Origin: a virus
Virus record (IMG/VR): IMGVR_UViG_3300025120_000098
Span: 1-48,222 of that record
Reading direction: 5' to 3' (one strand)
Length of the DNA: 48,222 nt
Position 1 is the first letter of the stretch. Every line of letters begins with the position of its first letter. The notes under the pieces were generated by a model. The model was not told the DNA's origin, searched no databases, and saw only the letters and a list, made by a program, of their open reading frames with translations. This document shows, in pieces, positions 29,832 through 47,474 of this stretch. The position numbers and the translations under genes were made by a program.

Positions 29832-30497
29832 ATGATTAAAGAACTATTTCCTACAGCGATATATCAAACAAATGTTCCTTGTCCTGACAAGGAGTGGGAA
29901 GGGATGATGGATCTCTGTGAAGAGTTCTGGGAAAGAAATCAAGAAGAGATCGATGATCATGGCAACATGACTGGTGATCAAGATGTCCAGAAGTTTTTCA
30001 TGGCGCATCGGTCAGAAAAATTTTACTGGTTAAACTACCAAGTATCTCAGGCTATGCAGGAATACTTGCGTAGTATCTGTAGAGACGCTGATGATGGTAA
30101 AACACTTGAGTATGCCGTCTTTGTACAGAAGGCATGGACTAGCGTAGTTAGTCCTCATAGTGGCAGAGTTCCTGAGCATCTACATAAAGGGTCTCACTTC
30201 AGTGCCATTTATTATCTAAGAACAGAAGGTGAGGGTGGTGTATTAACACTCTGCGCTAGCACTGGGTTTGAGATGGCACCTATTAATGTCCATGAACGAT
30301 ATCTAAATTATGATGTTGAGGTTGAGGATGGTGACCTTATTATTTTCCCTGCTAATATGATGCATTTTGTTAGTGAGTTTGAGGGGGACGAACCTAGAGC
30401 TGCCATAGTATATGATTTGTTTATTACATCTTGTGAGGAGGTTAATAAAGAGTATGAAAATGTTGTCACATTACCGTCTTACTGGGCAAGGATATGA
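29832..30497 (+). CDS. 2OG-Fe(II) oxygenase superfamily protein
   Basis: 221 residues, begins MIKELFPTAIYQTNVP. RVPEHLHKGSHFSAIYYL (His 116/118), GDLIIFPANMMHFV (His 178) and RAAIVYDLF (Arg 189) form the TIGR02466-like 2OG-Fe(II) oxygenase pattern, related in design to the gene at 16783. The ATG sits 1 nt after tRNA-Thr, so no room exists for a separate Shine-Dalgarno; the leader is the tRNA itself. It overlaps the next gene by 4 nt. Confidence 0.75.
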   Translation: MIKELFPTAIYQTNVPCPDKEWEGMMDLCEEFWERNQEEIDDHGNMTGDQDVQKFFMAHRSEKFYWLNYQVSQAMQEYLRSICRDADDGKTLEYAVFVQKAWTSVVSPHSGRVPEHLHKGSHFSAIYYLRTEGEGGVLTLCASTGFEMAPINVHERYLNYDVEVEDGDLIIFPANMMHFVSEFEGDEPRAAIVYDLFITSCEEVNKEYENVVTLPSYWARI

Positions 30498-31072
30498 TTG
30501 CTAAGATTCACGATAACTTATTTTCTCCAAAGTATATAATAGAGACGGAAGAACTGCTTGCTGAGATGCCAGTCTCTGCTATCAATATTGCAAACGGTGT
30601 TGACTATCCCAATGCACTTCATGGGACACATAGATTATTTGGAGAATGTATATTCTCTAGATCAAATTTCAATAGGGTAGATACTCTTAGTAAAGATTCA
30701 TCTAGATTTTTTGATATGTTTGAGCACATTCAAAAAGTAACAGATCAGTACTACTATTTGAACAGAATTGATTATAATTTACAACATTCTTTCTGTGATG
30801 GGTCATACCATATTGATGGAAATGATTCAGACGAGTATACCATGATGTATATGGCTAACCATACCTGGGATACTAAGGAGTGGGGTGGTCAGTTTCAATT
30901 GTGTGATGAGAAATTTAATGTGCTTGAGGAGCATGAGTTTGTTCCTGGTAGAGTGTTAGTGTTTCCATCTAACATTCGTCACAGAGGATTGGGACCACGC
31001 CATCCTTATGTGTATAGATACACTGTGGTTTGGAGAGTGCAAGATATTGACTCAGCTCTCGATGAATTATGA
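30494..31072 (+). CDS. 2OG-Fe(II) oxygenase-like protein
   Basis: 192 residues. GSYHIDGNDSDEYTMMYMAN gives H106-x-D108, then WGGQFQL, GRVLVFPSNIRHRG (H163) and YRYTVVWR (R175). This is the prolyl-4-hydroxylase-like layout, including the E-W-G-G strand typical of the fold. ATGA-coupled both upstream and downstream. Substrate unknown. Confidence 0.8.
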   Translation: MIAKIHDNLFSPKYIIETEELLAEMPVSAINIANGVDYPNALHGTHRLFGECIFSRSNFNRVDTLSKDSSRFFDMFEHIQKVTDQYYYLNRIDYNLQHSFCDGSYHIDGNDSDEYTMMYMANHTWDTKEWGGQFQLCDEKFNVLEEHEFVPGRVLVFPSNIRHRGLGPRHPYVYRYTVVWRVQDIDSALDEL

Positions 31073-31641
31073 TTGTTCGGAACTTTGTTAAAATGCATCA
31101 CTACGAAACTAGTGTTAGACCAAGTATTTGTGTGATAGATAAATTTTTATCCAGAAATAATTTTAGTGACCTCTCAGAGTTTGCTGAAGAGTGTCAATAT
31201 AGGTACGGAGAAAAGGATGAGGATACCCATAAACCCACAGGTATGACATATGATCTTCTGACTGACGATACTGATGAAGAAGATCAGGATGTCATTGACC
31301 TTATTCATGGGAAAATCCTAGATAAATTTCCAGAAATGGAAGAGTATAAACTTGATAGATTGTATATCAATTGTTTTGCTCCTAGAGAGTTAGCAAATTA
31401 TCATCGAGATTGTGAAGAACCAATTGATTGTGTTACCTTTCTACTGTACGCCAATCCAGTCTTCAAAGGATTAGATGAAGGCGGGGCAACAGAATTTTTT
31501 CTAGAAGAAAAAATCATTGCCATACCACCAATCCCTAATACTCTCGTAAAGTTTACTGGATGGATTTGGCATAGAGCTACTCCTTTTAATAGTGATCACA
31601 GGTTTACATATGCAATCAAATATAGTAAAGAAGAGTATTGA
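31069..31641 (+). CDS. 2OG-Fe(II) oxygenase-like protein (P4H type)
   Basis: 190 residues. LANYHRDCEEPIDCVTFLLY gives H112-x-D114, DEGGATEFFLE is the conserved GG(A/E)T strand, TGWIWHRATPF gives H168, and HRFTYAIKY gives R178. All catalytic positions are present, so it should be active. Coupled to the previous gene (ATGA); overlaps the next by 32 nt. Confidence 0.82.
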   Translation: MIVRNFVKMHHYETSVRPSICVIDKFLSRNNFSDLSEFAEECQYRYGEKDEDTHKPTGMTYDLLTDDTDEEDQDVIDLIHGKILDKFPEMEEYKLDRLYINCFAPRELANYHRDCEEPIDCVTFLLYANPVFKGLDEGGATEFFLEEKIIAIPPIPNTLVKFTGWIWHRATPFNSDHRFTYAIKYSKEEY

Positions 31642-32218
31642 TGATTGCCGTTACTATGTGGAGGATAATTTATTTCTTCCAGAAGTAATTGAAGAACTGA
31701 GAGAGTTTGCTCTCACGACAGACATCCGTAATGAGGAATACGAAGAAGGTTATTTCTCTATAAATTACGATAGTACATATGTTCCATTACCTCTTATTAA
31801 AGATGTGGTTCTAGGACTACAAAACAAATTTCCTTTCCTTGGAGAATTTGACAGGGGATGGGCTTTCGTTTATAATAATGAGGCAGAGGGAGTCACACCC
31901 CATGCAGACCCATCTCGTTACAATGTTAACTTGTGGGTTACTCCTAATGATTGTGTGATTGACAAAGAGAAAAACGGTTTGATTATCTATGATATCAAAC
32001 CGCCTCTTTCATGGACCTATCAAGAATACAATTCTAATCCAGAATTGATTAAAAAATTCTTAGACTATACAAATTCTAAGAAGACAATAGTCCCCTACTC
32101 ATGCAATCGGTTGTTAATATTCAACTCTAAATACTTTCACGAAACGAACAATGTTTCAATGAAAGATGGTCTAATGAGTCGGAGAGTTAACTACACCTTC
32201 ATGTTTAAGGGAGATTAG
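31610..32218 (+). CDS. 2OG-Fe(II) oxygenase-like protein
   Basis: 202 residues from ATG 31610; the GTG at 31592 is less likely. GVTPHADPSRYNVNLWVTP gives H98-x-D100, KNGLIIYD follows, RLLIFNSKYFHETN gives H177, and SRRVNYTFMF gives the Arg. The longer insert between the HxD and the distal His (about 77 residues) distinguishes it from its neighbours. Its last codons and TAG stop are the 5' end of tRNA-Val. Confidence 0.75.
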   Translation: MQSNIVKKSIDDCRYYVEDNLFLPEVIEELREFALTTDIRNEEYEEGYFSINYDSTYVPLPLIKDVVLGLQNKFPFLGEFDRGWAFVYNNEAEGVTPHADPSRYNVNLWVTPNDCVIDKEKNGLIIYDIKPPLSWTYQEYNSNPELIKKFLDYTNSKKTIVPYSCNRLLIFNSKYFHETNNVSMKDGLMSRRVNYTFMFKGD

Positions 32219-33965: not shown

Positions 33966-34958
33966 ATGATAGCACTAATAACTGGTATTACGGGACAGGA
34001 CGGTTCGTACCTTGCAGAATTTCTCCTTGAAAAGGGATATGAAGTTCATGGCATTGTACGCCGTTCTTCTCTTATTAATACCCATCGTATTGATCATATC
34101 TACGATAAAATTAATCTTCACTATGGAGACCTGACTGATGCAGGTAATCTCATCAGCTTAATCCAGACAATTAAACCTACTGAGGTATACAACCTTGGTG
34201 CAATGAGTCATGTTAAGGTGTCCTTTGAGATGCCTGACTATGTTGGAGAGGTTGATGCTTTAGGCACACTGCGTCTTTTGGATGCTATTCGTCTGCTAGA
34301 TCATCCCTGCAAGTTCTATCAGGCGTCTACAAGTGAACTGTATGGACTGGTACAAGAGGTCCCTCAATCAGAGACCACGCCATTTTATCCGCGCTCACCC
34401 TATGGTGTAGCAAAGCTTTATGCCTATTGGATCACACGAAACTACCGCGAGGCGTATGGTATACATGCTAGTAACGGTATTCTATTCAATCATGAGTCCC
34501 CTAGGAGAGGCGAAACATTTGTCACTCGCAAAATCACGAGAGGACTATCAAAGATCTCTGCAGGACTTCAAGATGTTCTAGAGCTTGGTAACCTTGATGC
34601 TCAGCGTGACTGGGGTCATGCTAAAGATTTTGTTCGTGGTATGTGGATGATTGCACAGCACGAAACTCCTGATGATTTTGTTCTTGCTACAGGTGAGATG
34701 CGTAGTGTCAGACAGTTTGTTGAAGAGGCATCTCAATACTTTGGATTTAATATTGAGTGGCGTGGAGAGGGCGAAAGTGAGGTTGGTTTCTGTAAATGTA
34801 TGAACAGAGACATCATCCGGGTGAACCCTAAATATTACCGCCCGACAGAAGTGGAACAACTTCTGGGTGATTTTACTAAGGCAAGAACTGTTCTAGGGTG
34901 GGAACCAGAATTTAGTTTCTCTGACCTTGTACAAGACATGTGTATTTTTGGACAATGA
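33966..34958 (+). CDS. gmd: GDP-mannose 4,6-dehydratase
   Basis: 330-residue extended SDR enzyme converting GDP-D-mannose to GDP-4-keto-6-deoxy-D-mannose, the first step to GDP-L-fucose. The NAD(P)-binding motif [19 protein letters not shown] starts at residue 7. The catalytic set is STSELYG (121-127) with Y146-GVA-K150, and the [17 protein letters not shown] block is diagnostic of Gmd. First gene of an eleven-gene glycan block; it starts directly after the preceding stop and overlaps the next start (ATGA). Confidence 0.95.
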
Positions 34959-36205
34959 ATAAATTTCACAAAATCGAACGCTGCAGAGTTTGTGGTAACG
35001 AACATCTAGTTACTGTGCTTGACCTTGGAGATCAATATCTTTCGGGTATTTTTCCTAAGACTATCGATCTGGGTATGTACAAAGGTCCTCTTGCACTTGT
35101 AAAGTGTGATGAGAAAAAAGGTGGTTGTGGTCATGTTCAGCTTGAGCATACATTTGATCTGCCTACCATGTATGGTGATGAGTATGGTTATCGCTCTGGT
35201 CTCAACGGCAGTATGATTCGTCATCTGCGTGAGAAAGCAGAGAAGATTAGAGCAGACACCAAGCTTGAATCTGGTGATATCGTCATTGATATTGCTGGAA
35301 ATGATGGCACCTTCCTTGGATCTTTCCCTCATGATTTACAACTCATGAGTATCGATCCTACATCTAAAAAGTTTAGGGATTATATTCCTGAGCATGTTAA
35401 TTATATTGCAGACTTCTTCTCTGCTGATACCTATCGTGATCGGTTTGGTAAGCAGAAGGCAAAGGTTGTAACATCGTTCTCGATGTTCTATGACCTGGAA
35501 GATCCATGTGAGTTTGCTCGTCAGGTCAATGAGATCATTGATCCTCGTGGCATTTGGGTGCTTGAGCAGAGCTACATGCCAGAAATGTTGAAGATGAATT
35601 CATTCGACACCGTGTGCCATGAGCATCTGTCATACTATGGTATGCGGCAAATCAAGTACATTATGGACAAGGCAGGATTTAAGATTGTTGATTTTGATTT
35701 CAATAATGTTAATGGTGGTAGCATCTCTGTTGTTGTTACGCCCTCTACTAACAGTGAGCGTAAAGAGTGTACAACTAAGTTGACCGGTCTTATCGCTCTA
35801 GAGCTTGAAAAGAAACTGGATACAACTGAACCCTGGGAAGAGTTTGCTCAGAGGATCAATGACTGCAAGGAACAGTTCTGGAAGATCCTTGACTTCTACA
35901 AAGGTAATGGTGCAAAGATCTGTTGTCTTGGTGCTAGTACCAAGGGAAATGTCACACTACAGACATGGGAAGTGACTCCTGATGATGTAGAGATGATTGG
36001 AGATGTTAATCCTGATAAGGATGGGTCGTTCACTCCTGGAACATGGATTCCTATTAAGGATGAAGAGGATGTGCTGATGCGTGACTTCGATCTTCATATC
36101 GTATTACCTTGGCACTTTAGAGACTTCTTTCTCAAGAATGAAAAGTTCAAAGGAAAGCGTTTCCTATTCCCACTACCTGAACCTGAAGTAGTTATTGCAC
36201 CGTGA
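34955..36205 (+). CDS. NDP-sugar C-methyltransferase-like protein
   Basis: 416 residues in the three-domain layout of sugar C-methyltransferases (TylC3/TcaB9-like): an N-terminal zinc-binding region with C10-x2-C13 and C51...C58, a SAM domain ([17 protein letters not shown], about 105-122), and the catalytic-type [12 protein letters not shown], followed by a C-terminal Rossmann domain ([12 protein letters not shown]). These enzymes methylate C3 of 4-keto-6-deoxy NDP-sugars. Lying between gmd and fcl, it could use the Gmd product. ATG 34955 is chosen over the GTG at 34940. Confidence 0.85.
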
Positions 36206-36216
36206 AGATTAGGACA

Positions 36217-37155
36217 ATGAATAAAGATTCAAAAATTTTTGTTGCTGGTCACTGTGGTCTAGTTGGGTCTGCCATTGTTCGTCGTCTCAAAGAAGAAGGG
36301 TACACTAAAGTTATTACCAGGACTAGGCAAGAACTTGATCTTATGGATCAAGAGGCTGTAGAAAGTTTCTTTGACTATGAACAAATTGATTATGTATTTG
36401 ATGCTGCTGCTCGTGTCGGCGGCATTCATGCTAACGATACTTATTCAGCAGAGTTTATCTACCAGAACACTCAGATTCAAAACAATTTAATTCACAATGC
36501 TTGGAAAAGCGGTGTTAAAAAGTTTTTGTTTTTGGGAAGTGTATGCATCTATCCTAAGTTTGCAGAGACTCCTGTACAAGAAGAGTCTCTGATGTCTGGA
36601 GAACTTGAGCCTACTAATGATGCGTATGCTCTTGCCAAGATTCATGGTATATACATGCTCAAGTCCTACTATAAACAGTACGGATTTAAGGGTGTTAGTC
36701 TCATGCCTGCTAACCTGTATGGTCCCAATGATAACTTCCATCCTCTGAATGGGCATGTGATCCCCGCGATGATGCAGAAGTTTAATAACTGGCAGCAGGG
36801 CGATAAACCCGTCACCTGCTGGGGTACAGGCACCCCTCGTAGAGAGTTCCTCCATGTAGATGATCTTGCCGATGCATGTATGTTTGCCATGGAGAACTAC
36901 AGCTGTGCAGAGTTGCTCAATGTAGGATCAGGCGAGGATGTTTCTATCAAAGAACTAGCAGAAATGATGGCAAAGGTAACTGGATACCCTGGAGAGATTG
37001 AATGGGATACTTCTAAACCAGATGGTACACCCAAGCGTCCTCTGGACTATACAAAACTCCTGAAAAAAGGTTGGAAGCCGAACCATAAATTACTAGAAGG
37101 TCTTCGTAAAACTTACGACTGGTATATTGCACAAACTGATTTGCAAACAAGATGA
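36217..37155 (+). CDS. fcl: GDP-L-fucose synthase
   Basis: 312-residue epimerase/reductase turning GDP-4-keto-6-deoxymannose into GDP-L-fucose. NADP motif GHCGLVGSA (11-19), catalytic S108 and C110 in GSVCIYP, Y137-ALA-K141, and NLYGPNDNFHP, all diagnostic of Fcl/WcaG. ATG 36217, with AGGA just upstream, is preferred to the GTG at 36202. The 14 bases GGACAATGAATAAA around this start are identical to those at the start of the previous gene. Followed by a fucosyltransferase (4-nt overlap). Confidence 0.95.
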   Translation: MNKDSKIFVAGHCGLVGSAIVRRLKEEGYTKVITRTRQELDLMDQEAVESFFDYEQIDYVFDAAARVGGIHANDTYSAEFIYQNTQIQNNLIHNAWKSGVKKFLFLGSVCIYPKFAETPVQEESLMSGELEPTNDAYALAKIHGIYMLKSYYKQYGFKGVSLMPANLYGPNDNFHPLNGHVIPAMMQKFNNWQQGDKPVTCWGTGTPRREFLHVDDLADACMFAMENYSCAELLNVGSGEDVSIKELAEMMAKVTGYPGEIEWDTSKPDGTPKRPLDYTKLLKKGWKPNHKLLEGLRKTYDWYIAQTDLQTR

Positions 37156-37961
37156 TTGGTATTAATTATGTTGGCAAGATGAAAGATCGTCTTGCCAATC
37201 AAATGTTTCAGTATGCTGCTGTAAAAGGTATTGCAGCTAATTGTGGTTACACATTTGCTGTGCCACCATCAAAATATAAAAGTAAAGCAGATGAATGGAA
37301 CGAACACCAACTGTTTGTTCCATTTAATCTTTCTAACCTGAGCGCACTTCAGGTACAGTATATTGATAAGGAGCGTCCTGTTGTAAGGGAGGAGCACTTT
37401 CACTTTGATCAGAACTTGTTTGATAATTGTCCAGACTTCGTATCGTTGTTTGGATTTTTTCAGTCTGAAAAATACTTTAGTAATGTGAGAGAAAGTCTCC
37501 TTGAAGATTTTAGCTTTAAGGATGATTATCTTGATCCATGTAAGAAGATGCTGAAGGAAGTTAATAATCCTGTTGCTCTACATGTGCGTCGTACTGACTA
37601 TCAAAATTATTCACACCATCCTATTTGTGATATAAATTACTATAGGGAAGCACTTAACCGTTTCGGTGATGATCGTGAGGTAATTATCTTTTCTGATGAC
37701 CCCGATTGGTGCTTGCAAGAAGATCTGTTTGATGAAGACCGCTTCTTAGTATCTCAAACCAATGATCAATATCTTGACCTTTGTTTGATGTCTATGTGTA
37801 GTGACTTTATTATTGCTAACAGTTCTTTCAGTTGGTGGGGAGCATGGCTTTGCACTAACCCAGATAAGAGGGTGGTTGCACCTTCTAATTGGTTTGGTCC
37901 TCCCTTGAGTCAAACCAATAACACTAAAGACTTGTATTGTGAGGGTTGGGAAATTGTATGA
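37152..37961 (+). CDS. GT11 fucosyltransferase (alpha-1,2 type)
   Basis: 269-residue GT11-family enzyme. The N-terminal RLANQMFQYAAVKGIA (13-28) corresponds to the family's GxLGNQxFQYA motif with substitutions; ALHVRRTDY (142-150) is the GDP-fucose-binding HxRRxD motif; and ANSSFSWWGAWL (about 222-233) is the third family block. GT11 enzymes transfer fucose in alpha-1,2 (or 1,3) linkage, as in H-antigen synthesis. It lies immediately after the genes that would make GDP-L-fucose and before a GT6 enzyme. ATGA-coupled on both sides. Confidence 0.9.
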   Translation: MIGINYVGKMKDRLANQMFQYAAVKGIAANCGYTFAVPPSKYKSKADEWNEHQLFVPFNLSNLSALQVQYIDKERPVVREEHFHFDQNLFDNCPDFVSLFGFFQSEKYFSNVRESLLEDFSFKDDYLDPCKKMLKEVNNPVALHVRRTDYQNYSHHPICDINYYREALNRFGDDREVIIFSDDPDWCLQEDLFDEDRFLVSQTNDQYLDLCLMSMCSDFIIANSSFSWWGAWLCTNPDKRVVAPSNWFGPPLSQTNNTKDLYCEGWEIV

Positions 37962-38659
37962 GCTTAAGTGCTGCAATCATATTCATTGGAACTAATAAGT
38001 ATCTAGATTTCTTTCCGAAATATTATGAGACTTGTGAAGAATTCCTCTTTCCTGATCTGAGGAAACAATATTATGTCTTTACCGATGGAGAACTTGAGGG
38101 AGAACTACCTGAGAACATTACTCATGTTCAAATCAGTCATAAGGAATGGCCTGCAATTACATTGGAACGCTTTCATACGATCCTACAGGCAGAAGAACTT
38201 TTAAAGCAGCATGATTGGTTACTTTTCCTAGATGCTGATATGAGAGTTGACTCCGTAGTTTACTCTGAAGAACTTCTTGATGATGATAGGGACTTTGTTG
38301 CTGTTCATCATCCATGTCATTACATGACTGGTACAGGAACCTTTGAAACTAATCCCAAATCTGAGGCTTATGTAAAAGGACAACCCCTTCAATACTATCA
38401 AGGATGCCTATGGGGAGGTAAAATGGAAGCAGTCATTCCTATGATGAAACTCTTGAGAGATAGAGTTGACAAAGATTATAGTAATGATATAATTGCTCTA
38501 TGGCATGATGAAAGTCATCTCAATAGATTCTTTATTGAACATAACGATAGGGTGTTTGCTGCCCCACCAGACTATGCATTCCCAGAATGCTATCCTAACT
38601 ATCCATACAAAAGAAAAATCATCCACCTATCCAAAGATAACTCATCTTATCAAGTATGA
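37958..38659 (+). CDS. GT6 glycosyltransferase (blood-group A/B type)
   Basis: 233-residue retaining alpha-1,3-Gal/GalNAc transferase of family GT6, the ABO family. Visible: FFPKYYETCEEFLFP and YYVFTD near the N-terminus, metal-binding LFLDADMRV (DxD at 92-94), YYQGCLWGGKMEAVI (146-160), and LWHDESHLNRFF (181-192), nearly identical to the human A/B enzyme (VWHDESHLNKYL). It keeps a DxD, unlike the NxN of many bacterial GT6 proteins. ATG 37958 overlaps the fucosyltransferase stop; the mammalian enzymes act on fucosylated acceptors. A GT6 gene has been noted in another cyanophage (P-SSM2). Confidence 0.88.
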   Translation: MSLSAAIIFIGTNKYLDFFPKYYETCEEFLFPDLRKQYYVFTDGELEGELPENITHVQISHKEWPAITLERFHTILQAEELLKQHDWLLFLDADMRVDSVVYSEELLDDDRDFVAVHHPCHYMTGTGTFETNPKSEAYVKGQPLQYYQGCLWGGKMEAVIPMMKLLRDRVDKDYSNDIIALWHDESHLNRFFIEHNDRVFAAPPDYAFPECYPNYPYKRKIIHLSKDNSSYQV

Positions 38660-39357
38660 CCGACCCTAATGCATGGCAAATGCCAACCTTCTTTACTAAA
38701 GAGAAGGCAGATGAACTTCGTTATAAATTCCCCGGATTGGAACTGGTAAGTCACCAGAACTTCTCTCAGTGCTATCAGGATATGTTTGTCCTGTGTATGA
38801 CCGATGGTCGTCCTAAGGGAACCTTTGTAGAGATTGGATCAGGACATCCTGTGATCTCTAACAATACTGCTTTGCTTGAGTCTCGCTATGAGTGGGAGGG
38901 TATTGGGTTTGAAATTAAAGAAACCGAAGCTGAATTATATAACAAACATCGTAAAGCTAAGGTTGCTGTGGGTGATGCTACAACTGCAGACTTCGATGCT
39001 TTGTTTGAAGAGGTTGGTCTCGGTCCTAACTTTGACTACTTGCAGGTAGATTGTGAACCTGCTGAGGTTACCTTTGAAGCACTGAAAAAAATTAATTTAG
39101 AGAAGTATAAGTTCGCTACTATTACATTTGAGCATGATGCGTATAATGACGGTACTGATGTTAGAGATGCTTCTCGTGAGTATCTTCAGGCACATGGCTA
39201 CACATTGATTGCAGATAATATCTCTGTTGATGAGGATCATCCCTTTGAAGACTGGTGGGCTCATCCCGATCTTGTTCCTTCACATACTATTGATACTATG
39301 AAATGTGTGACTGGTGAAACTAAGAAAGCAGAAGACTACATGCTCGGGAGGGTTTGA
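38656..39357 (+). CDS. FkbM-type SAM methyltransferase
   Basis: 233 residues. GTFVEIGSGHPVISNNTALLE (about 53-73) followed by WEGIGFEIKETEAELY is the SAM-binding start of FkbM-family methyltransferases, and YLQVDCEPAEVTFEALKKI matches the second family block (x-x-x-D-x-E). These enzymes usually O-methylate sugars, consistent with capping or decorating the glycan made by neighbours. Coupled by ATGA upstream and TGATG downstream. Confidence 0.8.
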   Translation: MTDPNAWQMPTFFTKEKADELRYKFPGLELVSHQNFSQCYQDMFVLCMTDGRPKGTFVEIGSGHPVISNNTALLESRYEWEGIGFEIKETEAELYNKHRKAKVAVGDATTADFDALFEEVGLGPNFDYLQVDCEPAEVTFEALKKINLEKYKFATITFEHDAYNDGTDVRDASREYLQAHGYTLIADNISVDEDHPFEDWWAHPDLVPSHTIDTMKCVTGETKKAEDYMLGRV

Positions 39358-40286
39358 TGAAATGTGTTCTCTGGGGATACCCACTTCATTCTGATACATA
39401 CTCATATGTACACGAAGGCTTCAAGAAAGCTCTAGAAAGAGCGGGACATGAGGTTCACTGGTTCCATGATGATGAGTATCCTAATCACGCAGACTTTAAT
39501 TATGAAGACTGCGTATTCTTTACCGAGGGTTACGCCGATAAGAACCTTCCTGTCTTGGCAAGTTGTGTATATTATGTGCATGTCTGTGTTAATCCAGAAA
39601 AGTATCTCGGCAAATGTAAAAAACTAATTGACATGCGCTATCATCAGGATAGCATGGACAAGGATAACTACGAGTTCCACCATGACCTGAATGATTTTGA
39701 AGAGCTAGACACAGGTGTATGTGTTGATCGTTTGTCATCTAGAGATAAGGGATATGAGATTGCCTACATTGCATGGGCAACTGATCTTATGCCTGAAGAA
39801 TTTGATGAAGAGTGGGTAGATATTCCAAGGGAAGATGTATGGTATTTTATTGGTAGTATCTCTGGAGATGGTCGCTTCAAAAATGAACATCTAATCAAAG
39901 AATTTGGTGCATTGTGTGCTAAAATTAATGTGAAGACTGGATGGTCAAACCCCTGGACTAATCCTCTTGATGGTTCTGTCATGAGAGATCTTATGCAGAA
40001 GTCGTTTCTTAATCCAGATCTTAGAAATGATACCCATAAACGCTGGGGAACTAAAACTTGTAGAGTGTTCAAGTCGATGAGTTATGGTCACTTAGGTTTG
40101 ACTAACTCACCTAAACTTGCTAAGTTTGCAGGACCAGAAGTTCTCTGTGCTGAAGGTATCGGTGATCTTTTTGAACTTGGTTTGCAGAATAAGGATAATA
40201 AAGATCTTATTCGTAGACAAATGATGCATACAAAAGATCATCATACATATGTTAATCGTATCAATGGATTGCTTAGATTATTATGA
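39357..40286 (+). CDS. Probable GT-B glycosyltransferase
   Basis: 309 residues. The N-terminus MKCVLWGYPLHSDTYSYVHE then GFKKALERAGHEVHWFHDDE is a GT-B-type first strand and helix. The C-terminal half has KTCRVFKSMSYGHLGLTNS and AKFAGPEVLCAEGIGDL, followed by HTYVNRINGLL, as in CgeB/GT1-like enzymes. Sugar donor and acceptor unknown. The TTG at 39354 is rejected in favour of ATG 39357. 4-nt overlap with the next gene. Confidence 0.65.
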   Translation: MKCVLWGYPLHSDTYSYVHEGFKKALERAGHEVHWFHDDEYPNHADFNYEDCVFFTEGYADKNLPVLASCVYYVHVCVNPEKYLGKCKKLIDMRYHQDSMDKDNYEFHHDLNDFEELDTGVCVDRLSSRDKGYEIAYIAWATDLMPEEFDEEWVDIPREDVWYFIGSISGDGRFKNEHLIKEFGALCAKINVKTGWSNPWTNPLDGSVMRDLMQKSFLNPDLRNDTHKRWGTKTCRVFKSMSYGHLGLTNSPKLAKFAGPEVLCAEGIGDLFELGLQNKDNKDLIRRQMMHTKDHHTYVNRINGLLRLL

Positions 40287-41119
40287 CTCTTAGTTTTGGT
40301 TTCATCGTCGGCGGAGACGATAGTTATTATAAAAATTTAATGAGAGCATGTGAGTCTCTAGAAAGGATTGGTCAATCACATGAGATTCTTATCTTGGATA
40401 TGGATGATCGTCTAGAAATTGATGATCCCAAAGTAAAGATTGTCAGTGGTGCAGGAGAGAAGGTAGAAAATAAGGATGATCGTAACTGGTTCCAACCACA
40501 CATCTGGAAGGAGAGGTTTAATCTTTATAAGCATGTAGAAACTGATCATTGCATCTATCTTGACACAGACACTGTGGTCATTCACGATCGTGTAGATGAA
40601 CTGATTAAAGAAGCTGAGGATGATTTTTTAATCGCCCGTCACTGGTGGGTTCCTACTCTTGCAGACTACATGAGAAATGTTGAAGTAGATCATAGTGGAT
40701 TGAGAGAGTATCTTCCTGAAGAACTGTCTACCTATAAGTATGCCGCATCAGGAGCATTTCTCTTTCAGAAAGATAAGCACGATGCAATCTTTGAGCGTTG
40801 TGCTGAAATTTATAATGACATCTTTAGTGATGGCGGGCTGCATAACGGAGTTACTGATGAGTTTGTATTGTGTTTAGCACTGAATGAGATTGGTGGGTAT
40901 AAATTTACCAACGGTGCATTCAATCACTGCGCTGCAGCAGACCAGCAAGACCTTAAGTTAGATGATGGTATATGGTACGGTAAGAATCCTCAGGAAGATG
41001 ATTGGAAGAAAGTATTCTTGTTCCATTCTTCTTGTCAGAATGTAGAATCTCTTGCTTCTCATAGTCCTGGATTCATCAACGAAATTAAGAGAGATATGTA
41101 CTGGGAGGATTACAAATGA
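40283..41119 (+). CDS. GT-A glycosyltransferase with DTD motif
   Basis: 278 residues. FGFIVGGDDSYYKNLMRACES is a GT-A N-terminal strand and helix. HCIYLDTDTVV carries the DxD (94-96) that binds Mn2+ and the nucleotide-sugar, as in GT8-like enzymes, and TDEFVLCLALNEIGGYKF with a late HSSCQN is a typical acceptor/metal region. The donor cannot be predicted. Overlaps both neighbours by 4 nt. Confidence 0.75.
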   Translation: MTLSFGFIVGGDDSYYKNLMRACESLERIGQSHEILILDMDDRLEIDDPKVKIVSGAGEKVENKDDRNWFQPHIWKERFNLYKHVETDHCIYLDTDTVVIHDRVDELIKEAEDDFLIARHWWVPTLADYMRNVEVDHSGLREYLPEELSTYKYAASGAFLFQKDKHDAIFERCAEIYNDIFSDGGLHNGVTDEFVLCLALNEIGGYKFTNGAFNHCAAADQQDLKLDDGIWYGKNPQEDDWKKVFLFHSSCQNVESLASHSPGFINEIKRDMYWEDYK

Positions 41120-42078
41120 AGATTGCATTAATTGGTCCTGGTATTATGGAAATCCCACCTGATGGGTGGGGTGCTGTTGAAATGCTGATCTGGGATTACA
41201 CTGTAATTCTTAGAGAACTTGGGCATCGTGTGGAGATTATCAATACTCCAGATAGAGAACTAATTAAATTTGAAGTAGAGCATGGTAAGTATGATGTAGT
41301 TCACCTACATTACGATGTCTTCCATGATATTATTAATGACTTAGTTCCTTTGTGTAAGGCATTGATTGTCTCTAGTCACTATCCATATGTCAATACTCCT
41401 CATATGTGGGGTAGAGATGGTTATGGACTTGTAGCCGAGAGGTATGCTGCTAATAGAAACTTTCATATCTTCTGCTCTTCGCAGAAAGATATCGATACTT
41501 GGACAGATCTCGGAGCTAATCCTAACCGTGTTTGGTTGAGCAAACTTGGTGTCCGTCCTTATCCATATAAGTTTGATGAATTTGCAAGTCTTGATAGAAC
41601 CCTATGCTTCTCTCAGATTGTAGATCGTAAGCGTCAATATCTTCTAGAAGATATCGATACTGTTGACTTCATGGGTCGTATGGAATTTGGTGGTAAGTTT
41701 GCAAAGAACAATCCAAATTATAAAGGCGAGGTCATTAGAGAAAAACTCAATGAGTTTATTACTTGCTACTCAAACATTGCTCTAATGAGTGAGGTTGAGA
41801 ATACCACACCCCTTGTTATCAAAGAGGGATTAATCTGTGGTCTTGGTGTTGTTTGTTCTGAATCTGTTGCTCCAGAACTTGACACCAGTAAACCATGGAT
41901 CGATGTCATTCCTGAGAGCAAAATAAATAACTTGGAATATGTTCTTGATGTTATTGAGAACAATAAAAAAGTTTCTAAGCAACATAGAAAAGAGATTAGA
42001 GAATACGGTATTCGTGAATTCGGTCTTGAAAACATTCTTGCTTATGAATACATTCCTAAATTAGAATCATTGCTATGA
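41116..42078 (+). CDS. GT4-like glycosyltransferase, copy 1
   Basis: 320 residues. MKIALIGPGIMEIPPDGWGA then VEMLIWDYTVILRELGHRVE is the GT-B/GT4 first unit (G-W-G-A acceptor loop). VHLHYD and SSHYPYVN follow, and PLVIKEGLICGLGVVCSESVAPELD is the donor-binding E-x7-E-type region in which the usual second Glu motif is altered. Clear tandem paralogue of the next gene (shared PP.GWGAVE.LIWDY and IPESKI..(L/I)EYV). Confidence 0.85.
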   Translation: MKIALIGPGIMEIPPDGWGAVEMLIWDYTVILRELGHRVEIINTPDRELIKFEVEHGKYDVVHLHYDVFHDIINDLVPLCKALIVSSHYPYVNTPHMWGRDGYGLVAERYAANRNFHIFCSSQKDIDTWTDLGANPNRVWLSKLGVRPYPYKFDEFASLDRTLCFSQIVDRKRQYLLEDIDTVDFMGRMEFGGKFAKNNPNYKGEVIREKLNEFITCYSNIALMSEVENTTPLVIKEGLICGLGVVCSESVAPELDTSKPWIDVIPESKINNLEYVLDVIENNKKVSKQHRKEIREYGIREFGLENILAYEYIPKLESLL

Positions 42079-43028
42079 AGTTTTCAATTGTAGGACCTAA
42101 CACGCCTATCCCTCCTAGAGGATGGGGTGCTGTAGAAAGTCTCATTTGGGACTATAAAGTAACCCTTGAGGAGCTTGGTCATGAAGTGGACATTATCAAC
42201 ATTGGGGATCCTAGAGAAATCCTCAAGAGAATCAATTCGTTTCGTCCAGATTTCGTGCATATTCATTATGACGACTGGATTATTCTCTATCCTTTTGTGC
42301 AATATCCTTGTGCATGTACCACCCACTTTGCCTACATCGAACGCCCGGACAAAATGAATGGGTATGGGCAGATCTTTGGTCACTTCCAACAGACTAGACC
42401 AAATACATTCTGCCTATCCGAAGGAATCAAAAAGGTCTATCATATCTTAGCCGATATCCCTACTGAAAAACTGTGGGTCAATCCTAATGGTGTTGATCTA
42501 AGCTTGTTCAGGAAGTCAATGGAACCTGAGTTCCCTGACCGCAGTATCTACTTGGCAAAGATTGATTATAGAAAGCGTCAACATAAGTTCCAGTCCATAG
42601 ATAGTCTCTTCTTTGCTGGTAACATAGCAGACAAGAGATTCAATGAGAATCATAACTATCTTGGTGAATGGAAGAAGGAGTACCTACATGACTATCTAAC
42701 GGACTATGGTAACCTTGTGCTCCTTTCGGATGGTGAGGCACACTCTCTGGTCATTATGGAGGCATTTGCTGCTGGTCTGGGGGTCGTTGTGAGCGAGTTT
42801 GCTACTGCTAATCTAGACACTGGTCTTGATTTTATCACGGTGATCCCTGAATCTAAGATTGATGATATAGAATATGTCGAATATCAGATTATTAAGAACA
42901 GAGAGTATTCTATTGCTCATAGAGAAGAGATTATTGAATACTCTCAGCAATTTGATTGGAAGAATGTTCTACAAAAATACTACTTACCTAATGTGGAAGA
43001 GGTGATTGCCAGACATGGACAAAAATAA
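42075..43028 (+). CDS. GT4-like glycosyltransferase, copy 2
   Basis: 317 residues, a paralogue of the preceding gene along its whole length. MKFSIVGPNTPIPPRGWGA then VESLIWDYKVTLEELGHEVD starts the first Rossmann domain; WVNPNGVDLSLF is the inter-domain switch region typical of GT4, and HSLVIMEAFAAGLGVVVSE is the classical E-x7 donor motif, better conserved than in copy 1. It likely adds a second sugar of a repeat. Overlaps the next gene by 14 nt. Confidence 0.88.
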   Translation: MKFSIVGPNTPIPPRGWGAVESLIWDYKVTLEELGHEVDIINIGDPREILKRINSFRPDFVHIHYDDWIILYPFVQYPCACTTHFAYIERPDKMNGYGQIFGHFQQTRPNTFCLSEGIKKVYHILADIPTEKLWVNPNGVDLSLFRKSMEPEFPDRSIYLAKIDYRKRQHKFQSIDSLFFAGNIADKRFNENHNYLGEWKKEYLHDYLTDYGNLVLLSDGEAHSLVIMEAFAAGLGVVVSEFATANLDTGLDFITVIPESKIDDIEYVEYQIIKNREYSIAHREEIIEYSQQFDWKNVLQKYYLPNVEEVIARHGQK

Positions 43029-43803
43029 ATCAGCACACAAGCTAAAGGACATTCCACATATCTACTGGATCAATCTTGATTCTAAGACTGATCGCAAGCA
43101 GTTCATGGAGGAACAGTTTGCTTATTGGGAAGTAGAAAATACTAGGATCTCTGCTTATGATGGTAGAGATGATGATCTTAGTGACATCATCGTTGGTAAG
43201 TATCCAGATAACATGTCGTCTGGTGAGATCGGTTGTGTCACATCACATCTTAAGGGGATCCAATACTGGTTGGACAATTCCGACGATGAGTATGCTATAA
43301 TGATGGAAGATGATTGCGATCTAGAAGTGGTCAAGCACTGGCCCTTCTCTTGGAAAGACTGGTTCCGTCATGCTCCTGCTGCATGGGACTGTATCCAGAT
43401 CGCAATCATCAATCCTGCTGTCCCTGTTCTGCAAATGCATTACAGGTTCATCAACGATTTCTCTACAGCTGCTTACATTATTAATCGTAGGTATGCTGAG
43501 AAGTTACTATCCCTTTACACAAAGAAGGGCAAGTACAAGTTGGATAGTAGAATCAAACCCCGTGCAGTTGCAGATGATCTCATCTATAATAGCGGGCTGA
43601 CCTTCGTCTTTCCTATCTTCATGTATAAGATTGCACTTGGGTCAGACATCCATGACATCCATGTTGATGTCTATCACAGAAATTGTCATGATGCCCTCTG
43701 GAATTTTTGGAAGAATGATGCTAATATGGTTGAGGATTGGACACCCTATTTCGATCTCAATCCATACCTAGGCAGACTTCCTCCTGGGTTTGAGGGTAAG
43801 TAA
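43015..43803 (+). CDS. GT25-family glycosyltransferase
   Basis: 262 residues from ATG 43015 (the upstream TTG at 43006 is rejected). The GT25 (LPS galactosyltransferase-like) signature is clear: IYWINLDSKTDRKQFMEEQF (16-35), SSGEIGCVTSHLKGIQYWLD (68-87), and AIMMEDDCDLE (EDD at 98-100) as the metal-binding motif. The second half holds FSTAAYIINRRYAEKLL, typical of the family. Last gene of the glycan block; a late promoter and stem-loops follow. Confidence 0.88.
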   Translation: MDKNKSAHKLKDIPHIYWINLDSKTDRKQFMEEQFAYWEVENTRISAYDGRDDDLSDIIVGKYPDNMSSGEIGCVTSHLKGIQYWLDNSDDEYAIMMEDDCDLEVVKHWPFSWKDWFRHAPAAWDCIQIAIINPAVPVLQMHYRFINDFSTAAYIINRRYAEKLLSLYTKKGKYKLDSRIKPRAVADDLIYNSGLTFVFPIFMYKIALGSDIHDIHVDVYHRNCHDALWNFWKNDANMVEDWTPYFDLNPYLGRLPPGFEGK

Positions 43804-43807
43804 CATG

Positions 43808-43815
43808 TATAAATA
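43808..43815 (+). promoter_or_regulatory. T4-type late promoter TATAAATA
   Basis: Exact late consensus in the intergenic gap after the glycan block. Expected initiation near 43820-43825 falls at the start of a perfect palindrome. Confidence 0.7.
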
Positions 43816-43917: not shown

Positions 43918-44289
43918 ATGTTTAAATCTGTATTCGCAGCTTCCGCTGCTCTTTTCGCTTCTGCTGGCGCTGCTTTTGCAGGACCCTATGTCAATGTCGA
44001 GGCTAATTCTGGTTGGACTGGATCCGACTACAATTCGACCACGACAGATCTTCATGTAGGATTTGAAGGCGCACTTGGTGAGTCTGCTTCGTACTATGTA
44101 CAAGGCGGCGCTAGTGTAGTCTCCCCTGACAGTGGCGAGAGCGATACAGTTCCCTCCGGTAAAGCTGGTCTTGGGTTCGCTGTTACCGATGCCCTGGGCG
44201 CATATGGTGAAGTATCGTTTATCGGTTCTGGTGACGAAGATCTTGACCGTGGATATGGAGCTAAGTTGGGCGTCAAGTACAACTTCTGA
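43918..44289 (+). CDS. Exported beta-barrel-like outer membrane protein
   Basis: 123 residues. MFKSVFAASAALFASAGAAF then AG is a signal peptide with an A-x-A cleavage site (about residue 21). The mature part has about eight alternating strands (YVNVEANSGWTG, TTTDLHVGFEGAL, SASYYVQGGASVV, KAGLGFAVTD, LGAYGEVSFIGSG) and ends GAKLGVKYNF with a terminal Phe, the hallmark of outer-membrane barrel insertion. It resembles small 8-strand barrels such as Ail/Lom or OmpX types. Its own late promoter and structured leader precede it and a terminator follows. Confidence 0.75.
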   Translation: MFKSVFAASAALFASAGAAFAGPYVNVEANSGWTGSDYNSTTTDLHVGFEGALGESASYYVQGGASVVSPDSGESDTVPSGKAGLGFAVTDALGAYGEVSFIGSGDEDLDRGYGAKLGVKYNF

Positions 44290-46182: not shown

Positions 46183-46347
46183 ATGCCTCATGGATCTGTG
46201 ACTAAAAACGATATCTTGGTTAGAGTCTACAAGATAAAGAATGAACTTTATGATGAGGATCCTTCTACTCATCCTGGTCAGTGGCATGATGGTGCTCACT
46301 ATTCTTTAGATAAAATTCTAGATCTTCTTCAAGAATATACGCAATGA
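46183..46347 (+). CDS. Small soluble protein (54 aa)
   Basis: ATG 46183 to TGA 46345-46347, encoding MPHGSVTKNDILVRVYKIKN followed by a His/Asp-rich middle (STHPGQWHDGAHYSLDKIL). It lies 3 nt after the preceding stop and overlaps the halogenase-like start (ATGA), so probably co-translated with it. No family recognised. Confidence 0.6.
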   Translation: MPHGSVTKNDILVRVYKIKNELYDEDPSTHPGQWHDGAHYSLDKILDLLQEYTQ

Positions 46348-47474
46348 AAATTGCAATCATTGGCGGTGGCAACGGTGGATTGGCCACCGCTTTAATTTTA
46401 AAGAGGAACTGGTATAAACAAATCTCTGAGATAGAGATCTACTATGATCCTAATGTCCCTATTGAAAAAGTGGGACAAGGATCTTTAGTTACTTTTGCAG
46501 CTCTGTTGACTGAGACTACAAATATTAATTGGTATGACAATCCTATCGATGCCACATTTAAGACAGGTATTTTATATGATGGGTGGGGTACAAAGGTAGA
46601 TAAGTTTATTCATCCATTCCCTATGGATGTCATAGCGTTGCATTACTCTCCATCAAAGCTGAGAGAGTTAATGATGCAACGAAATTTTTGTAAGTTTACT
46701 GAAGCAAATATCACAGACCCTAGTCAGGTAGATGCAGATATTGTATTTGACTGTAGAGGAAAACCAGAAGACTTCACAGACTATCATGTCCTGAAGAATC
46801 CACTGAACTCTGTCGTGCTTGGATCTGGTCCAGTCAAACCACAGCAACTCTGGTCAGATTGTATTGCGACTCCACATGGATGGTGCTTTGGTATTCCTGC
46901 CAAGAACTCTATGAATTATGGTTACCTATACAATAATGAGCTGACTGATGAAGCAGAAGCGGCATCCACCATGGAACAAATGTTTGGTGTTGCTCCTGGA
47001 GATAGATTCAGTTTCAGTAATTACATCGCCAAGAATCCTATTCAAGATGATGAGAGAGTATTCTTAAATGGCAATCGATTGATGTTCATCGAACCGATGG
47101 AAGCAACATCGACAGAATCGTATGTTCGTTGGGCGGGTCGCGTCGGTCAGTGCCTGTTTGAAGGTCATGATCTTGAGAATGCTGTAGAGGAATATTATAA
47201 AGAGATTGTGGAGATCCAGAATTTTATCCTCTGGCACTACGCTGCGGGGTCAAAATATGATACAATATTCTGGCAGAAAGCAAAGGAGATGGCACGGTCA
47301 CACGAGTATGACGACAGGTTCTTTGAGTATTTGAACTACTCCAAAGCTCTGAATCACATTGATGATGAAGATGATGGGGATGATGAGTATGGTCAGTGGA
47401 TTGCTTCCAACTTCCGTAACTGGCTAGACAATACCGATCAAACAACTGCCCCATACTGGGGCACTGCTGCTTGA
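46344..47474 (+). CDS. Flavin-dependent (tryptophan) halogenase-like protein
   Basis: 376-residue FAD protein of the tryptophan-halogenase family (bacterial PrnA/RebH are ~530 aa, so this is shorter). GGGNGGLATALILKR (7-21) binds FAD; ATFKTGILYDGW contains K73, aligned with the catalytic Lys of PrnA; GWCFGIP replaces the usual GWxWxIP with Phe at the second Trp; GYLYNN and FIEPMEATSTES (catalytic Glu region) are present. Substrate unknown; halogenation is not proved. It directly precedes psbA, whose promoter overlaps its stop. Confidence 0.8.
   Translation: MKIAIIGGGNGGLATALILKRNWYKQISEIEIYYDPNVPIEKVGQGSLVTFAALLTETTNINWYDNPIDATFKTGILYDGWGTKVDKFIHPFPMDVIALHYSPSKLRELMMQRNFCKFTEANITDPSQVDADIVFDCRGKPEDFTDYHVLKNPLNSVVLGSGPVKPQQLWSDCIATPHGWCFGIPAKNSMNYGYLYNNELTDEAEAASTMEQMFGVAPGDRFSFSNYIAKNPIQDDERVFLNGNRLMFIEPMEATSTESYVRWAGRVGQCLFEGHDLENAVEEYYKEIVEIQNFILWHYAAGSKYDTIFWQKAKEMARSHEYDDRFFEYLNYSKALNHIDDEDDGDDEYGQWIASNFRNWLDNTDQTTAPYWGTAA

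Follow-up and report, generated by a model that had tools for sequence, protein, structure and literature searches.

A cyanophage operon with a C-methyltransferase gene between gmd and fcl, ahead of a GT11–GT6 pair: a possible H/B-like glycan-capping pathway

Can a phage of cyanobacteria build a surface glycan resembling the H and ABO antigens, and from which sugar? This question is raised by positions 33966–38659 of the IMG/VR record IMGVR_UViG_3300025120_000098 (hereafter the window, meaning the whole 48,222-base stretch). The window also encodes a DNA polymerase, a DnaB-like helicase and a ribonucleotide reductase; of its annotated relatives, T4-like cyanophages are closest, and it derives from a virus of marine cyanobacteria. 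The original prediction described gmd, fcl, GT11 and GT6 genes in this order and proposed GDP-fucose synthesis followed by H/ABO-type glycosylation. All four genes were confirmed by profile, and the pair of enzymes for GDP-L-fucose synthesis is present with its catalytic residues. The adjacency of gmd and fcl was rejected, since an overlooked C-methyltransferase (CMT) gene sits between them (34955–36205). The operon order, with all open reading frames (ORFs) on the + strand, is gmd–CMT–fcl–GT11–GT6. Since the CMT gene is conserved between gmd and fcl, the GDP-sugar may be a C-methylated 6-deoxyhexose, and plain L-fucose is doubtful as the product of the window. We slightly favor, as the best explanation of the whole, a phage-encoded H/B-like glycan-capping operon, in which gmd, CMT and fcl would supply a GDP-C-methyl L-sugar to GT11, followed by GT6.

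The gmd gene (33966–34958) encodes a GDP-D-mannose 4,6-dehydratase (TIGR01472, E = 3.5e-160, 533 bits with a cut-off of 415; PF16363, E = 2.8e-145). The overlaps of about 4 nt described between successive genes hold as ATGA overlaps at the fcl/GT11 and GT11/GT6 junctions, and also between GT6 and the next gene; gmd overlaps the CMT gene by 4 nt, not fcl. The CMT gene (~1.25 kb, 416 residues) encodes an NDP-sugar C-methyltransferase, probably a 3-C-methyltransferase. It carries the complete TylC3-type domain set, namely PF08421 (zinc-binding, E = 5e-13), PF13489 (S-adenosylmethionine, E = 1e-11) and PF08484 (C-terminal, E = 4e-34), and TylC3, the D-mycarose 3-C-methyltransferase, is its top match in the PDB (4rv9, E = 1.8e-43; TcaB9, ~1e-28). 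The active-site residues Glu223-His224, which align with the hEHlsy motif of TylC3, and Tyr77/Tyr79 are identical in all 18 viral sequences aligned. These similarities suggest that the CMT most likely methylates C3. Of 81 viral CMT loci, 65 have gmd, CMT and fcl in an unbroken row, which is more than chance would give, and in 10 others one flank is missing because the contig ends there. In bacteria, a GMD-type gene adjoins the CMT gene in about 64 of 80 loci; the single such neighbor that was searched is closest to solved GMDs. Since the CMT gene lies beside gmd and fcl in viruses and a GMD-type gene in bacteria, the CMT is tied to GDP-4-keto-6-deoxymannose.

Other arrangements of these genes were also seen. 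In one locus (L059, 5224–7230), a GT6 gene occupies the position of gmd directly upstream of CMT–fcl, and another (L225) has an odd order in which GT6 precedes a GDP-mannose-epimerase-like gene and GT11, and a CMT-like gene sits in the same cluster. Two uncultured megaphages of 635–642 kb (GenBank LR745206 and LR756502) carry a GT6 (34% identical) and a distant CMT (23–25%) about 7–8 kb apart.

The fcl gene (36217–37155, or from 36202 with an alternative GTG start that gives a 4-nt overlap with the CMT gene) encodes a GDP-4-keto-6-deoxy-mannose epimerase/reductase, whose nearest PDB chain is the E. coli GDP-fucose synthetase (1bsv, E = 2e-100). The catalytic residues Ser107, Cys109, Tyr136, Lys140 and His179 are conserved in the window, and across the aligned Fcl sequences the sole exception is S107T in an Fcl from a ColD context. 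Residue 108, between the catalytic Ser107 and Cys109, is Val in the window and in 45 of 46 CMT-linked sequences, versus Ser in E. coli and in 16 of 16 sequences without CMT. The Val108 sequences form one clade, and CMT-linked Fcls are separate from the others. The S108V change suggests an Fcl adapted to a methylated substrate.

GT11 and GT6, the two TRANSFERASES of the operon, were both confirmed by profile and fold. GT11 (37152–37961), a member of the alpha-1,2-fucosyltransferase family, contains the HVRRTDY motif noted previously, with the family HxRRxD motif present as HVRRTD (PF01531, 93.6 bits with a cut-off of 23.9, E = 1.7e-26; phrog_2644, E = 1.2e-102). Its fold was predicted because a sequence search of the PDB gave no match. 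The AlphaFold2 model (predicted local distance difference test, pLDDT, 90.4) has a GT-B-type fucosyltransferase fold; the nearest Foldseek matches, POFUT1, FUT8, plant FUT1 and NodZ, are all fucosyltransferases, at E about 3e-6 and a template modeling (TM) score of only 0.5–0.6. Donor-gene context differs among GT11 relatives, and the GT11s behind gmd–CMT–fcl form one clade (support 100/99). In this clade the GRxGNQ loop, which in related fucosyltransferases contributes to the donor site, is altered by an extra residue and a Gly-to-Ala change. The linkage formed by GT11 is probably alpha-1,2 onto a galactose-like residue.

GT6 (37958–38659) belongs to the family of retaining alpha-1,3-Gal/GalNAc-transferases and is of the DXD type. 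The LFLDADMRV and WHDESHLN motifs lie where they had been reported, and profile search together with structure prediction made family membership clear: PF03414 scored 85.8 bits (cut-off 25, E = 3.1e-24), and sequence matches were found to BoGT6a of Bacteroides ovatus (E = 3.5e-28) and human ABO (~1e-19). The AlphaFold2 model (pLDDT 83.5) has a GT-A fold, and its top PDB matches (Foldseek E = 4e-23) are BoGT6a (TM 0.90) and human GTA/GTB (TM 0.80–0.87), including H-antigen complexes. The family residues are all present, namely Asp92 and Asp94 of the DXD motif, the acceptor residue His118, the catalytic Glu185 in WHDE and the C-terminal Lys226. Since these residues and Trp182, His183 and Asp184 are invariant in 50 non-redundant loci, GT6 is expected to be an active, metal-dependent enzyme. 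In the donor pocket, the positions corresponding to 266/268 of GTA are Gln148/Cys150 in the window and in 48 of the 50 loci. The GTA (Leu266/Gly268) or GTB (Met266/Ala268) residues are thus absent from the GT6 of the window, and Gln148/Cys150 is unlike BoGT6a too. With this pocket, neither the donor (Gal, GalNAc or another sugar) nor A versus B type is assignable from sequence. The position of the GTA threonine Thr245 is Ala or Ser in most phage GT6 homologs.

The GT11–GT6 pair is closely linked beyond the window. Viral contigs and phage isolates supplied GT6 loci that were reduced at 90% identity to 50 sequences; for 48 of them, 1 kb or more of DNA upstream was available. GT11 is immediately upstream (<60 nt) in 35 of these 48 loci; another 10 have it within 3 kb (45/48 in total, again more than chance would give). 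In each of the 65 adjacent pairs that were scored, the two genes overlap, by either 4 or 1 nt. Far from being missing from all related phages, the adjacency with such overlaps is widespread. Pairwise protein distances of GT11 and GT6 correlate (Mantel r = 0.68; maximum of 500 permutations, 0.29). Among the records seen, all cyanophage isolates with GT6 also have GT11 (Bellamy, S-8S5x, S-CAM9, S-PRM1, B23, DSL-LC02/03, ACG-2014f and P-SSM2), and GT11 occurs without GT6 in S-SCSM1, S-SM2, S-T4, S-SRM01, S-SSM7 and others. This one-way dependence fits GT6 acting on what GT11 makes without proving it, since neighbors are inherited together.

The genes ahead of the pair vary. Upstream context was scored for 51 non-redundant GT11s, and the gene just upstream is a short-chain dehydrogenase/reductase (SDR) resembling GDP-mannose-3,5-epimerase in 15, the fcl of gmd–CMT–fcl in 11, the fcl of gmd–fcl in 10, another transferase in 7 and ColD in 2, with none recognized in 6. 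The epimerase label is based on the S-CAM9 copy (2c59, E = 6e-81) and the ColD label on ACG-2014f (2gms, E = 5.7e-51, catalytic His kept). Context tracks the GT11 tree (11 changes versus 30.7 when labels are shuffled), and the epimerase context appears in two or more separate clades; the fit to the GT6 tree is looser (16 changes), and the GT6 donor-pocket residues stay constant. The sugars predicted from these gene sets are L-fucose, a C-methyl sugar, L-colitose and L-galactose, all L-fuco-like. Two alpha-1,2-L-sugar transferases, human FUT2 and E. coli WbgN, accept L-Fuc, L-colitose and L-Gal (PMC11987014), and genes for GDP-L-fucose synthase, GDP-mannose-3,5-epimerase and alpha-1,2-fucosyltransferase have been reported in cyanophages (PMC9602691). 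We tentatively propose a conserved GT11-then-GT6 cap whose L-sugar donor genes (for fucose, 3-C-methyl sugar, colitose or L-galactose) are swapped as cassettes. This would be a phage-encoded surface-antigen polymorphism analogous to ABO or O-serotype variation and driven by superinfection competition, to which the window version would add a branched-chain C-methyl sugar.

Two other assignments of these upstream genes were rejected. The SDR ahead of GT11 in S-CAM9, S-8S5x, S-PRM1 and Bellamy was considered as a GalE giving UDP-Gal to GT6; in S-CAM9, the only copy searched, it is GDP-mannose-3,5-epimerase-like. The DegT gene of ACG-2014f is ColD-like rather than an aminotransferase. In that phage (L103, 1313–5226), gmd–fcl–ColD–GT11 is a likely GDP-L-colitose set, whose ColD-like gene is annotated only as hypothetical. 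A nucleotide-sugar epimerase precedes GT11–GT6 in Kanaloavirus, Makelovirus and Bellamyvirus phages (L104, L101, L102, L109 and L110); their annotations read UDP-glucose 4-epimerase or generic epimerase, and the copy from S-CAM9 (L104) is the GDP-mannose-3,5-epimerase-like one.

In the capping pathway that we favor, Gmd would make GDP-4-keto-6-deoxy-D-mannose, to which the CMT would add a methyl group from S-adenosylmethionine, most likely at C3. Fcl would then invert C5 and reduce C4 to give a GDP-3-C-methyl-6-deoxy-L-hexose (3-C-methyl-fucose or an L-virenose-like sugar), and some plain GDP-L-fucose is perhaps made alongside. GT11 would move the L-sugar, probably in alpha-1,2 linkage, onto a galactose-like residue, and the translationally coupled, metal-dependent GT6 would place an alpha-1,3-linked hexose (Gal or GalNAc) onto the same residue. 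The downstream transferases would complete the glycan, whose predicted cap is branched and H/B-antigen-like. The carrier is most likely the host lipopolysaccharide (LPS) or a surface glycan, and altering the host surface is the probable use.

Several observations weigh against this pathway. Two profile scores are under their cut-offs (fcl, NF047922, 439 bits with an NCBIfam cut-off of 500; GT6, NF041524, 182 bits with a cut-off of 250). The methyl position is taken only from the similarity to TylC3, and the CMT family includes C5-methyltransferases too. S108V falls short of showing adaptation because it is a single evolutionary change with one exception, the CMT-linked Fcl of locus L039, which has Ser108; the GT11 loop is likewise one change, and shared descent explains both equally well as adaptation. 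The main uncertainty is which transferase takes the methylated sugar. This may be GTa, a GT-B-like transferase encoded downstream (39357–40286; PF13524, E = 1.8e-4, under the cut-off) and recognized by synteny, lying directly after fcl in DSL-LC02-type clusters. GTa is a serious rival because the CMT trio lacks a nearby GT11 in 18 of 40 loci (present in 22) and is accompanied by GTa in 28. If GTa or another downstream transferase used the methylated GDP-sugar, GT11 and GT6 would use plain GDP-L-fucose and a UDP-sugar on the same oligosaccharide. The DSL-LC02-type phages, with GT11–GT6 several kilobases from gmd–CMT–fcl–GTa, agree with such a division. Yet of 34 GT11+GT6 loci that lack CMT, 13 have GTa as well, and in the clade of the window GT11 comes straight after fcl, overlapping it by 4 nt; we regard this reading as unlikely. 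The original prediction itself, in which GT11 would form Fuc-alpha-1,2-Gal from plain GDP-L-fucose and GT6 would add Gal or GalNAc to yield a true H and then A/B-like epitope, and which would leave the CMT product to be used elsewhere or only sometimes, we judge improbable. Fcl has all five catalytic residues and so could make GDP-L-fucose from the unmethylated intermediate, many phages have gmd–fcl–GT11–GT6 without CMT (10 of the 51 GT11 representatives), and E. coli O86 uses the same H-then-B pathway (PMC4202792). Against it stand the conservation of the CMT gene between gmd and fcl and the separate clades formed by CMT-partnered fcl and GT11.

The two transferases could also share an operon and work on different glycans or positions, their adjacency reflecting bulk inheritance of a sugar cluster. 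Clusters do move as blocks, and one or two genes separate GT11 from GT6 in P-SSM2, ACG-2014f and some contigs; but the pair persists over at least four upstream contexts and divergent lineages, and the one-way occurrence in the isolates seen also argues against separate targets, which we consider very unlikely. As for the carrier, tail-fiber genes lie downstream of the cluster in ACG-2014f and P-SSM2, as would suit decoration of phage fibers or capsid. This seems rather unlikely, since the cluster has several GT4-like transferases and ends beside an outer-membrane-protein gene (43918–44289), and a change of host LPS or O-antigen was proposed earlier for cyanophage sugar clusters (PMC7824862). 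Which of fiber and LPS is decorated, like any role in superinfection exclusion, is a matter of inference here.

Beyond 38659 the cluster runs on, through an FkbM-like methyltransferase gene and five transferase-like genes, to 43803. The FkbM-like gene (38656–39357; PF05050, E = 0.003, under the Pfam cut-off) overlaps GT6 by 4 nt and is followed by GTa and by GTb (40283–41119), a putative GT-A-like transferase gene recognized by its cluster position and a weak NF045582 match (E = 4e-4, under the cut-off). GTc (41116–42078; phrog_33732, E = 3e-66) and GTd (42075–43028; PF13439, E = 8e-8) are GT4-like, and the last gene (43006–43803; phrog_2835, E = 1.4e-111) is GT25-like, with an annotated GT25 near the cluster end in P-SSM2 and ACG-2014f. 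The small outer-membrane-protein-like ORF directly after the cluster has a signal peptide, holds the same position in DSL-LC02 and is 79–80% identical in two further loci (L065 and L066). An ATAAATA core lies just upstream at 43809; as a timing clue this late-promoter motif was uninformative in the window (10 found versus 11.6 expected). Elsewhere in the window, four consecutive ORFs (29832–32218), of which the first has a PHROG match to 2-oxoglutarate-Fe(II) oxygenases and the other three look similar, are flanked by tRNAs (Arg, Thr and Val), and a tryptophan-halogenase-family protein is encoded near the record end (46344–47474; phrog_2928, E = 1.8e-65).

With these results, a loose blood-group analogy of phage genes becomes a testable pathway, in which one transferase pair stays together while the sugar supply ahead of it changes. 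If the predicted products are borne out, phages would be synthesizing variable surface antigens of their own, a branched-chain sugar among them, and the most likely purpose would be to control further infection of the cell. The encoded enzymes, a compact and soluble set, could also serve to make rare L-sugar glycans, and they form a natural series in which GT11 donor choice can be studied. The idea is not wholly new: the GT11/GT6 pairing of E. coli O86 (PMC4202792), GT6 genes in two cyanophages, noted by 2014 (PMC3961637), and cyanophage sugar clusters (PMC7824862) are already known. In a partial literature search, we found no paper on a C-methyltransferase in a cyanophage GT11/GT6 sugar cluster, on donor-gene exchange ahead of a fixed GT11–GT6 pair, or on a virus-encoded branched-chain C-methyl sugar of this kind. 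Within that search, the CMT in this setting and the donor exchange are the new aspects, the H-then-B logic being known from humans and E. coli O86.

In E. coli O86, WbwK (GT11) adds alpha-1,2-Fuc onto Gal and WbnI (GT6) then adds alpha-1,3-Gal onto the fucosylated residue, giving a blood-group-B O-antigen (PMC4202792). That system is a chromosomal O-antigen locus with no C-methyltransferase reported, whereas GT6 of the phage is divergent, has the DXD motif and carries Gln/Cys in its donor pocket. Mammalian FUT1/2 and ABO (GTA/GTB) likewise place GT11 before GT6, and the fold, DXD and WHDE motifs are common to phage and mammal; however, structural-alignment identity is about 25%, the phage enzymes are small and soluble, and positions 266/268 are Gln/Cys rather than Leu/Gly or Met/Ala. 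BoGT6a, the closest solved relative of the phage GT6, differs in its NXN motif and metal independence (PMC3961637). In Coxiella burnetii, CBU0688/0689/0691 (Fcl, Gmd and a TylC3-type CMT) were proposed for virenose, a 3-C-methyl-6-deoxyhexose (PMC3539893, PMC3204966); the route there is biochemically proven only up to Gmd, and a GT11–GT6 pair is not described in the papers found. Among phages, P-SSM2 groups gmd, fcl, GT11, GT6 and GT25 together (PSSM2_257-271), but it lacks CMT, two genes separate its GT11 from its GT6, and that GT6 has a BoGT6a-like YYAGG donor motif. Synechococcus phage DSL-LC02 shares the gmd–CMT–fcl order (CMT 63–65% identical) and an adjacent GT11–GT6 pair; in contrast to the window, its pair lies about 5 kb further downstream, GTa directly follows fcl, and the GT11 loop is the standard GRLGNQ.

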